Source: an uncultured Spirochaetia bacterium (GTDB lineage: Bacteria; Spirochaetota; Brachyspiria; Brachyspirales; Brachyspiraceae). Taken from it: a stretch of DNA of 64,000 nt. The stretch covers positions 1 to 64,000 of the forward strand of contig CAMRBQ010000002.1 in the NCBI GenBank assembly GCA_947040495.1, given 5' to 3'. Below the pieces are notes generated by a model. The model was not told where the DNA came from and did no database searches. It saw nothing but the letters and a program-made list of their open reading frames with translations. Below are positions 51,629 to 56,414 of the stretch, in pieces. The position numbers were made by a program, and so were the translations under genes. Each line of letters begins with the position of its first letter. Position 1 is the stretch's first letter.

Positions 51629-52435
51629 ATGAATACAATAATAATTGCGTCAATATCTTCTGGCTCTATAGCTCTTTTGCTTTCTGTTTTACTTATTATA
51701 TCTAGTAGGTTTTTTCATACAGAGGTGGATGAAAAAGTTGAAAAAATTATGGCTGTCTTACCACTTGCTAATTGTGGTGCTTGTGGCAAACCTGGATGTG
51801 CCCAGCTTGCTAGCGCTATTGTGAAAGGAGAGGCGTCTGTTGATGCTTGTACTGTTGGTGGTACTGATGTAACAAATGCTATTGCTGATATTATAGGCAT
51901 AGAAGCCCCAGAGGCAAAAGAAAAAACACGTGCCTTTATATTTTGCCATGGATTTTATAATATTTCTTTTTCTCATAAAATGTATTTTGGTGTAAATAAA
52001 TGTTCAGCAGCTCATCTGATAGGCGGAAACAAAGATTGCTCTTATGGATGTTTGGGCTTTATGGATTGTAAAGCTTCTTGCCAATTTAATGCGATAGTAG
52101 AAGGGGAGGGCGGCATCCCAGATATAGTAGAAGATAAATGTACTTCTTGTGGTGCATGTGTGAAAGCCTGTCCTCGTAAATTGATTGAGATACATCCTGT
52201 AAGTCAAAAATTTCACATATATTGCAACTCGCATGATAAAGGACCACTTGCTAAAAAGCAATGTCAAAAAGCATGTATAGCATGTGGTATATGTGTGAAA
52301 AAATCAGGAGGTGCTATAAAAATGCATGATTTCTTGGCAGAGATTGATTATTCAAATTACAGTCTTAATGAAGAGAATAGCACTGGTTGTCCTAGTGGTG
52401 CATTGACTGGTGAAGATATAAATGTAGTGAAGTAG
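51629..52435 (+). CDS. rnfB: Electron transport complex subunit RnfB
   Basis: 268 aa. Membrane helix at the N-terminus (IASISSGSIALLLSVLLIIS), then the RnfB [4Fe-4S] motif LANCGACGKPGC (about 46-57), a middle Cys group (CSYGCLGFMDCKASC) and ferredoxin-like clusters (CTSCGACVKACPRKL; CIACGICVKKSGGAI; CPSGAL). RnfB takes electrons from ferredoxin for the Na+/H+-pumping Rnf complex. The other subunits (C, D, G, E, A) are not next to it, which is unusual. It could serve a remote Rnf operon or act alone. It converges on the DUF4384 gene. Confidence 0.92.
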   Translation: MNTIIIASISSGSIALLLSVLLIISSRFFHTEVDEKVEKIMAVLPLANCGACGKPGCAQLASAIVKGEASVDACTVGGTDVTNAIADIIGIEAPEAKEKTRAFIFCHGFYNISFSHKMYFGVNKCSAAHLIGGNKDCSYGCLGFMDCKASCQFNAIVEGEGGIPDIVEDKCTSCGACVKACPRKLIEIHPVSQKFHIYCNSHDKGPLAKKQCQKACIACGICVKKSGGAIKMHDFLAEIDYSNYSLNEENSTGCPSGALTGEDINVVK

Positions 52436-53648: not shown

Positions 53649-54587
53649 TTAATATTCTATAATTTCCTTTGTGGATGATTTTTTTTGATACTCATCTTTT
53701 TCAAGTATATCAATAATTCGGATTAAATCATCTGAACTGTAATATTCAATGACAATTTTGCCAGACTGACCATTTTTGTCTACTACATTAACTTTTGTTG
53801 CAAATATTTTTTCTAAATCATTTTCTATTTTTTTTAGATTTGGGTCATTAGGTTTTGCTTCATTATCTTTATATATATTTTTATCTTTTATTTTTACAAT
53901 ATTTTCGATATCTCTAACAGATAAAGATTTTTCTACTATTTCTATGGCAAGCCTTTCTCTTCTGATTTCATCTTTTTCAGAGAGCAGTGCCCTTGCATGC
54001 CCTTCGCTAATTTTTTCTTCTATTATGAGTTGTTTTATACTATCAGAGAGCTCAAGTATACGCATAGAGTTTGTTACAGTGCTTCTATTTCTACCTATTC
54101 TTTTGGCAAGGTCATCATGTTTTATTTTGAAATCATCTATAAGTTTACGATAGCTTAAAGCAATTTCAACAGCATTTAAATCTGCTCTTTGTATATTTTC
54201 AATAAGCGTGATCTCAAGCATTTTTTCATCGGCAACTTCAATAACAATAGCATCAGCTTCTTCCATACCAAGTGATTGTAATGCACGGAATCGCCTCTCC
54301 CCAGATACAAGTTGATATTCATTATCTTTGCATCTTAGTGTGAGTGGATTGATAAGACCATTAGATTTTATAGTTTCCGCAAGCTCTTTTATTTCATTGT
54401 CATTAAAAACTTTTCTTGGCTGGTCAGGATTTGGTTTTATTTTTGATAAAAGAATTTTACTAACACCAACTGTAGTATGTACCTCGTCTAAAGATTTTCT
54501 TATTTCTTTATCATTATTTATAATATTTTCTTTATCACTTTTCAGTAGTGCATCTAGCCCTTTTCCAAGCCCTCTTTTTTTCGACAT
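53649..54587 (-). CDS. parB: Chromosome partitioning protein ParB
   Basis: 312 aa. Start KKRGLGKGLDALL is the conserved ParB N-terminus. CTPase/ParB-core motifs: KPNPDQPRKVF, LVSGERRFRALQSLGM and ENIQRADLNAVEIALSY; then the helix-turn-helix (LAKRIGRNRSTVTNSMRIL) that reads parS. It loads at parS near the origin and, with ParA and SMC, segregates chromosomes. No parA is adjacent and no parS site was seen in the window, so this is an isolated parB, unusual for a chromosomal locus. Confidence 0.94.
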   Translation of the reverse strand: MSKKRGLGKGLDALLKSDKENIINNDKEIRKSLDEVHTTVGVSKILLSKIKPNPDQPRKVFNDNEIKELAETIKSNGLINPLTLRCKDNEYQLVSGERRFRALQSLGMEEADAIVIEVADEKMLEITLIENIQRADLNAVEIALSYRKLIDDFKIKHDDLAKRIGRNRSTVTNSMRILELSDSIKQLIIEEKISEGHARALLSEKDEIRRERLAIEIVEKSLSVRDIENIVKIKDKNIYKDNEAKPNDPNLKKIENDLEKIFATKVNVVDKNGQSGKIVIEYYSSDDLIRIIDILEKDEYQKKSSTKEIIEY

Positions 54588-54668: not shown

Positions 54669-56414
54669 TTATAGCAAGGTTAGTATGCCTATAATATAGG
54701 TTGGCGAATCTATCAAAAAAGAAAAACTGTAAGGATTCCTTATTATATTCTTTTTTTTCATTATAAAAATAAGTATAAAAGCATATAAAAAAACAGTTAT
54801 ATATTTTAGTTTATTAATATCATAGTATCCAAAATATACAGCAAGTATAATAGATAAAGATAATAATATCGGTAGTATAGCAAATATTTTATAAAGTATA
54901 TTTATATCAATAAAAGAAATAATAGATTTTGTGCCTGCAATTTTATCACTCTGTGAATTTCGTATATCAAAAAATATTTGCCTCATTAACATAAAGAAAA
55001 ATATAATGACTGTAGAAAATATTATGTTTTTTTGTTGTTTATATATATCCATTTGATAATAAATTATATATGAGCCATTAAGCAAAATAGTTACAGCAAA
55101 TGTAATAACCCAAGCCTTGAAATATGCGAGTTTTTTAAATAATGTAAAAATCAAAGAGCGAGAAGATTCCATGTTTTTTTTAAAACTCATATTATACGCT
55201 ATCCCAAGTACAAATGAAAAAAGGCTAAGGATTAAAATACTAGTTCCAAGGTAGTATGCCAATAAAAGCATAGTTACAGTTGATAGTAAAATAATTATCA
55301 TCATAATATTTTTAATTTTCATAAAAAATAGATACTGTGGATTATTGCTTATCGTTAAACTGTCATTGGTATAGTGATTAATGCTGCTCATTATAAAATA
55401 ATAACATGCTGTTAATAATCCTATTTGATATACATTTTTTATTTCAAGCACATCGCTAATCATAAATGATATAAAAAAAGCACCTATAGCAAAAAATAAA
55501 TTACTATATGTTAGAAATTTTAATATATTATCAATATACTTTTCTATACCTTTACTGCTTATTGTATGTAGGGAATTTGCGATTTCTTCTATCAGCCAAT
55601 CTGGTGTAGAAGCCCCTGCTGTAATGCCTATTTTCTCATATCCTGAAAAATCTATATTATATAAATCTTCTTCTTTTTCTATATAATAAGATTTTTTTAT
55701 TTCGCTTGCCACCTCATAAAGCCTTTTGGTATTGCTGCTATCTTTTCCGCCTATAACTAAAACTAAATCATTTCTGTCTGCCAGTTTTTTTGTTTCTTCT
55801 TGCCTTAATGATGTTGCTGCACATATAGTATTTTTGATTATTATATTGTCGCTGTCTTTATAGTAGTCTTTAATCTTTTCACTTAGGATGTTAAAGACTT
55901 CATTTTGCATAGTAGTTTGTGAAACTATAAGTATATTTTTATTATCTTTTGGTAGGCCTTCAATATCACTTTCTTTTATGATAACATAGCCGCCATGATT
56001 TTCTTCTGCAAAACCAATAATACCAATAACTTCAGGATGTTCTTTTTTACCAATGATAATAGTTCTATAGCCTAGTCTGTTATATTTTTTTACAATTGAT
56101 TGCACATCTGCTACATATTTACATGTAAGATTAACCACTTCTTTGGCATGATTTTTTATTTCTTTGAGCCTCTTAGGACTGACACCATGTGCTCGTATTA
56201 TAACTTTTTTATCTTTCAAGTCGGATAATGGACTACTATCTTCAAATGTAGTAACACCACTATTTTCAAGCATCTTGATAGTTTGAGGGTTATGAATGAG
56301 ATGCCCATCAACATATATAGTTTCTTTCGTTTTTAAGGCATACGAAAAAGACTTCTCGACAGCATTTTTAACACCATCACAAAAGCCTGCATATTTTGCT
56401 ATTTCTATTCGCAT
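54669..56414 (-). CDS. ispH: IspH fused to a UbiA-like membrane prenyltransferase domain
   Basis: 581 aa. Residues 1-288 are IspH (HMBPP reductase, last step of the non-mevalonate isoprenoid pathway): cluster cysteines in AGFCDGV (12), NLTCKYV (98) and NTICAATSLRQ (198), plus HNPQ, RAHGV, EHPEVIG, SQTTM, KDSSNTKRL and ASTPDWLI. Residues about 295-581 hold eight or nine membrane helices. They carry FFDIRNSQSDKIAGTKS (482-497), the second Asp motif of UbiA prenyltransferases; the first motif is degenerate (NHYTND, 346-351, lacking the usual Asp pair). No stop or frameshift lies between, so it is one polypeptide. The arrangement would put IPP/DMAPP synthesis at a membrane prenyl acceptor. Confidence 0.9.
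   Translation of the reverse strand: MRIEIAKYAGFCDGVKNAVEKSFSYALKTKETIYVDGHLIHNPQTIKMLENSGVTTFEDSSPLSDLKDKKVIIRAHGVSPKRLKEIKNHAKEVVNLTCKYVADVQSIVKKYNRLGYRTIIIGKKEHPEVIGIIGFAEENHGGYVIIKESDIEGLPKDNKNILIVSQTTMQNEVFNILSEKIKDYYKDSDNIIIKNTICAATSLRQEETKKLADRNDLVLVIGGKDSSNTKRLYEVASEIKKSYYIEKEEDLYNIDFSGYEKIGITAGASTPDWLIEEIANSLHTISSKGIEKYIDNILKFLTYSNLFFAIGAFFISFMISDVLEIKNVYQIGLLTACYYFIMSSINHYTNDSLTISNNPQYLFFMKIKNIMMIIILLSTVTMLLLAYYLGTSILILSLFSFVLGIAYNMSFKKNMESSRSLIFTLFKKLAYFKAWVITFAVTILLNGSYIIYYQMDIYKQQKNIIFSTVIIFFFMLMRQIFFDIRNSQSDKIAGTKSIISFIDINILYKIFAILPILLSLSIILAVYFGYYDINKLKYITVFLYAFILIFIMKKKNIIRNPYSFSFLIDSPTYIIGILTLL

Follow-up and report, generated by a model that had tools for sequence, protein, structure and literature searches.

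The window, that is, the whole 64,000-nucleotide stretch of DNA analysed here, carries on its minus strand (54669..56414) an IspH-UbiA fusion gene, a single frame of 581 codons that begins with ATG, has no internal stop and encodes a protein of 581 aa. Residues 1-285 (55560..56414, minus strand) form an IspH (LytB) domain, as judged from Pfam, NCBIfam and the modelled fold. Residues 3-282 match the Pfam LYTB profile above its cut-off (3.6e-82), the NCBIfam profile ispH_lytB (TIGR00216) matches with 2e-79, and the modelled half resembles the solved IspH structures 3dnf, 3f7t and 3ke8 (Foldseek). The three cysteines that serve as cluster ligands (C12, C98 and C198) are present, which together with the profile match places this half in the IspH family, and the HNP, HPE, QTT, SSN and AGAST motifs are all legible in its sequence. 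The first claim of the initial annotation, that one frame joins a motif-complete IspH to a polytopic domain, is therefore correct. IspH catalyses the final step in the bacterial synthesis of isoprenoid precursors, converting HMBPP to IPP and DMAPP at the end of the MEP pathway; according to the genome search, the fusion is the sole IspH in the genome from which the window comes.

The rpmB gene (ribosomal protein L28; 56444..56629, minus strand; Pfam 2.1e-19) lies directly upstream. As found by tblastn, it adjoins the fusion in 13 relatives, drawn from both of the order's families, hence this neighbourhood is conserved through the order. Directly downstream, on the same strand, is the gene of the chromosome partition protein ParB (53649-54587, minus strand), and a DUF4384 protein is also encoded downstream in the window; no match to ParB was found near the fusion in the relatives examined, the flanks of which were short. 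About 2 kb past the 3' end of the fusion, an RnfB-like iron-sulfur protein with FeS and 4Fe-4S domains is encoded on the plus strand (51629-52435), and it is possible that this protein supplies electrons to IspH. The gene neighbourhood gave no clue to a prenyl acceptor.

Fold and active site of the membrane domain

The remainder of the protein, residues ~290-581 (54672..55547, minus strand), had been annotated as UbiA (residues 295-581). The HMM search did not confirm this: residues 370-550 match Pfam UbiA (PF01040) with 2.6e-06 and 27.4 bits, short of the gathering score (34.2). Since a sequence-only search of domain profiles against solved structures also gave no credible match, the fold was tested by modelling. 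Two AlphaFold2 models were built, one of the whole protein (mean pLDDT 78.6) and one of the C-terminal half (79.5). In the models IspH is followed by long helices arranged in a bundle, in agreement with a UbiA fold of 8-9 membrane helices (pLDDT 79), and the linker is very short, the last IspH helix spanning residues 272-286 and the next one 290-303. When the whole model was compared with solved structures using Foldseek, IspH chains ranked first and UbiA chains next (7bpu, 4tq3-6, 6m31 and 4od4/5; probability 0.99-1.00, TM-score to target 0.42-0.59). For the C-terminal half, the first fourteen matches were all chains of the UbiA superfamily, including the membrane PRTase 8j8k. The TM-scores of the models to UbiA chains are only 0.37-0.59 and the E-values are weak, 3e-3 and worse. 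Weak E-values in structure searches are common for distant membrane proteins, and the assignment rests on the exclusive ranking of UbiA chains, not on E-values. Moreover, alignment of the fused-domain profile with that of ordinary spirochete UbiAs put both motifs in register (E 3e-4, at a probability of only 40). On the strength of the models, the C-terminal domain is thus predicted to have the UbiA prenyltransferase fold, so that the IspH-UbiA architecture and the likely membrane location proposed initially both stand, the latter as a prediction.

The active site is a different matter. In AfUbiA, Mg2+ and diphosphate are bound by N68, D72, D198, D202, R22 and K146, and alanine at any of these six positions weakens or abolishes GPP binding (PMC4106721). 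EcMenA likewise requires the four motif residues, and mutants of the equivalents of D72 and D198 lose all or nearly all function (PMC4106721). In the window protein, the first Asp motif (N346-L353; 55356..55379, minus strand) reads NHYTNDSL against the consensus NDxxDxxxD: the N68 position is kept (N346), and that of D72 is occupied by N350. This motif had been recognised as degenerate from the outset. The second motif, D483-G494 (54933..54968, minus strand; DIRNSQSDKIAG), proved partly degenerate by motif comparison. Its core DIRNSQSDKIAGTKS (DIRNSQSD) has the sequence described in the initial annotation and keeps the D202 position (D490); it is not an intact DxxxD, however, as the position of D198 is taken by N486. 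The extent of degeneracy had therefore been understated, and the fused domain has neither NDxxDxxxD nor DxxxD in the form typical of UbiA Mg2+/diphosphate motifs.

A residue survey covered 61 distinct fused domains, 30 from the window group (the window's order and one neighbouring family) and 31 others. The N68 position holds Asn in 60 of the 61 (30/30 in the window group), the remaining one having a gap; the positions of Y139 and D202 are Tyr and Asp, respectively, in all 61 (for D202, 30/30 in the window group); R478 is invariant, and residue 483 is acidic in 58. Asp is found at the D198 position in only three domains, none of which belongs to the window group, and at the D76 position in none. 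The D72 position is Asn throughout the window group (30/30) and Asp or Glu in 20/31 of the others. At position 303, which probably corresponds to R22, 29/30 window-group domains have Tyr and 27/31 others have Arg. The residue at the K146 position is Lys or Arg in 27/31 others and varies within the window group. The alignments behind the R22 and K146 correspondences are weak. As a control, the standalone UbiAs of Spirochaetota, read in the same way, mostly keep N-x3-D/E-x3-D. Judging from these sequences, much of the UbiA Mg-diphosphate site is missing from spirochete fused domains, and most of it from those of the window's order, which appears to be new; the loss looks like a two-step process, part of it phylum-wide and more in the window's lineage. 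With the Mg2+/diphosphate ligands mostly lost, standard two-metal prenyl transfer would be unlikely.

Distribution, ancestry and selection

The initial annotation had named a sequencing error joining two genes as a danger, and a survey of taxa with the fusion among its checks. The fusion was found at full length in 23 of 24 other genomes of the same family (47-50% identity), in the two sister-family genomes (38-40%) and in two further families (34-35%). A profile of the C-terminal half has matches in 66/296 Spirochaetota genomes, almost all of them within frames of ~575-660 codons, and in the sample of these matches that was read IspH stands in front of the domain. In a scan of the genomes of 84,980 species, the named matches were from Spirochaetes only. 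The presence of a full-length fusion in so many independent genomes rules out a sequencing or assembly join of two genes. The wide occurrence of the fusion within Spirochaetota appears to be a new observation. One copy, L084 (G189), lies in two frames, split near IspH residues 87-90 by a frameshift or an assembly error, and genome G036 has two IspHs (L032 and L028), a UbiA-fused and an unfused one, with ~44% and ~30% identity to the IspH of the window.

In the tree of IspH halves, 29 of the 30 fused proteins group with one secondarily unfused relative (support 89/94), the exception, L083, being weakly placed. The tree has long branches and fits, with moderate confidence, one old fusion within Spirochaetota. 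The unfused relative is instructive. In G003, a genome of the same family, IspH stands alone in a frame of 309 residues (L025:3459-4388) that ends where the membrane domain would begin; the convergent neighbour gene is the same as in G001 and comes immediately after, and neither a remnant of the domain after the IspH frame nor a copy elsewhere in G003 was found. This is a clean secondary loss of the UbiA half, therefore IspH in this organism can dispense with it.

Such a loss, together with the missing active-site residues, could suggest that the membrane half is a functionless, decaying remnant, or that the fusion is a gene-joining artefact. Full-length copies in 23/24 same-family genomes and across the phylum, as well as the conserved pocket, contradict this. 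Moreover, between close congeners dN/dS is 0-0.08 for the UbiA half and 0.03-0.10 for the IspH half: the UbiA half is under purifying selection of a strength like that acting on IspH. Decay is ruled out by these values, which show that the domain is in use, and we regard this explanation as a whole as extremely improbable.

Known fusions and the role of the membrane half

Fusions of this kind are not new, contrary to the initial annotation. Rao et al. (2015, Chem Sci, PMC4746011) described 47 IspH-UbiA fusions from sulfate reducers, in which the UbiA part (filed as PT_UbiA_5) has two DXXXD motifs, and proposed membrane placement and local IPP/DMAPP supply, which anticipates the channelling and tethering idea; a full-length active fusion protein was not obtained in that study. 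Spirochetes are not mentioned in its main text, and in the literature searched IspH-UbiA appeared only there and in one further paper that refers to that work. What we have is thus an already published kind of fusion in a phylum for which the searched literature holds no report, with a degenerate UbiA site. The fusions of Desulfobacterales and other sulfate reducers and the spirochete ones share domain order, similar size, a UbiA-fold C-terminus (by model in the window protein) and anaerobic hosts, and separate UbiA/MenA proteins accompany the former just as separate UbiAs occur in the sister family here. They differ in their motifs, most of motif I and the leading Asp of motif II being absent from the spirochete fusions, so that the window protein (NHYTNDSL, DIRNSQSD) does not have two DXXXD motifs, and in that no quinone pathway was detected in the window's family. 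AfUbiA (4TQ3-6), ApUbiA (4OD4/5) and the archaeal DGGGP synthase (7BPU/6M31) share the modelled fold, and the Asn of motif I, the conserved Tyr (Y139 of AfUbiA) and the last Asp of motif II are common to UbiA enzymes and the window domain; those three, however, are free of IspH and have the full set of Mg2+/diphosphate residues. In IspH-RPS1 fusions (e.g. Clostridium), also from anaerobes, IspH is likewise extended C-terminally by a second domain, but the partner is a soluble set of ribosomal S1 repeats and not a membrane domain. Other unusual UbiA fusions were seen in passing: UbiA (1e-52) with the ABC-transporter permease domain BPD_transp_1 (4e-19) in one frame of 548 aa (G155, L112:818-2461, minus strand), with frames of similar length in G188 and G194, and UbiA with a pyridoxamine-oxidase-like (flavin-binding) domain in one frame of 467 aa (G073, L124:477-1877, minus strand).

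The genome of the window contains no UbiA-like sequence besides the fusion (search at E up to 1), and at E 1e-4 the only UbiA family match in the same-family genomes was the window's own fusion. MqnA/D were not found in these genomes by profile search, nor was MenD above its cut-off, the sub-cut-off matches probably being other thiamine-diphosphate enzymes. Each same-family genome tested has one trans-polyprenyl synthase, apart from a fragmented genome in which it was not found. In the sister family, separate UbiAs occur together with MqnA/D and two polyprenyl synthases, and the fusion is present there too. A literature search for Brachyspira and menaquinone returned nothing specific. Since no quinone pathway was detected in the window's family, a role in quinone prenylation (MenA/UbiA/MqnP) was rejected there; the fused domain appears, from gene content, to have outlived the pathway and to do something else. 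Channelling of precursors into prenylation, as first proposed, is hence not supported here, several of the metal/diphosphate residues needed for AfUbiA binding or EcMenA activity being absent as well.

The explanation to which we give an even chance is that the protein is a membrane-tethered, active IspH with a remodelled UbiA-derived pocket, which probably binds an isoprenoid and is unlikely to carry out standard prenyl transfer. An active IspH would lie on the cytoplasmic face, held at the inner membrane by the UbiA-fold domain, and such tethering is plausible. The domain would descend from a UbiA prenyltransferase and partly keep the old pocket (N346, Y407, R478, D/E483, Q488 and D490); having lost most Mg2+/diphosphate ligands, it would most likely be an anchor with a ligand-binding pocket. 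The last precursor step may in this way be placed or tuned beside the membrane users of isoprenoids, which in the apparently quinone-less family of the window would mainly be the undecaprenyl-phosphate route. Two observations count against the tethered IspH: an invariant pocket and very low dN/dS exceed the needs of a bare anchor, and G003 apparently gets by with no anchor at all.

The chief rival is an active Rosetta-stone enzyme in which a remodelled metal site (N346, D/E483, Q488 and D490) prenylates a non-quinone acceptor and IspH feeds it locally, as has been proposed for the Desulfobacterales fusions (PMC4746011). The N68, Y139 and D202 positions (60-61/61), R478 and the acidic residue 483 (58/61), strong purifying selection, and the R303 and frequent D/E at the D72 position in other spirochete clades all speak for catalysis. 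The absence of Asp at the D198 position in 58/61 domains and at D76 in all speaks against it, as do Asn at D72 and the missing R22 in the window's order, the equivalent EcMenA mutants losing function, and the failure to detect a quinone pathway or a second long-chain synthase in the window's family; we consider an active enzyme possible but doubtful. A pocket conserved without the full catalytic set, joined to IspH by a very short modelled linker, could also be regulatory, binding prenyl diphosphate or polyprenyl phosphate and feeding back on IspH, yet G003 manages without the UbiA half, and this seems to us improbable.

Tentatively, a single ancient fusion in Spirochaetota may have given rise to a membrane-bound IspH in which a UbiA pseudoenzyme docks or senses an isoprenoid and so places or controls the last MEP step. 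If true, the UbiA-fold domain would be a pseudoenzyme that serves regulation or scaffolding. The published idea of making and using the precursor in one chain has been hard to test, since the known fusion proteins are poorly expressed and come from hosts that make quinones as well. With no other UbiA, no detected quinone genes, a natural deletion of the UbiA half and degraded catalytic residues under strong selection, the window's family offers a clean background for asking what the membrane half does.
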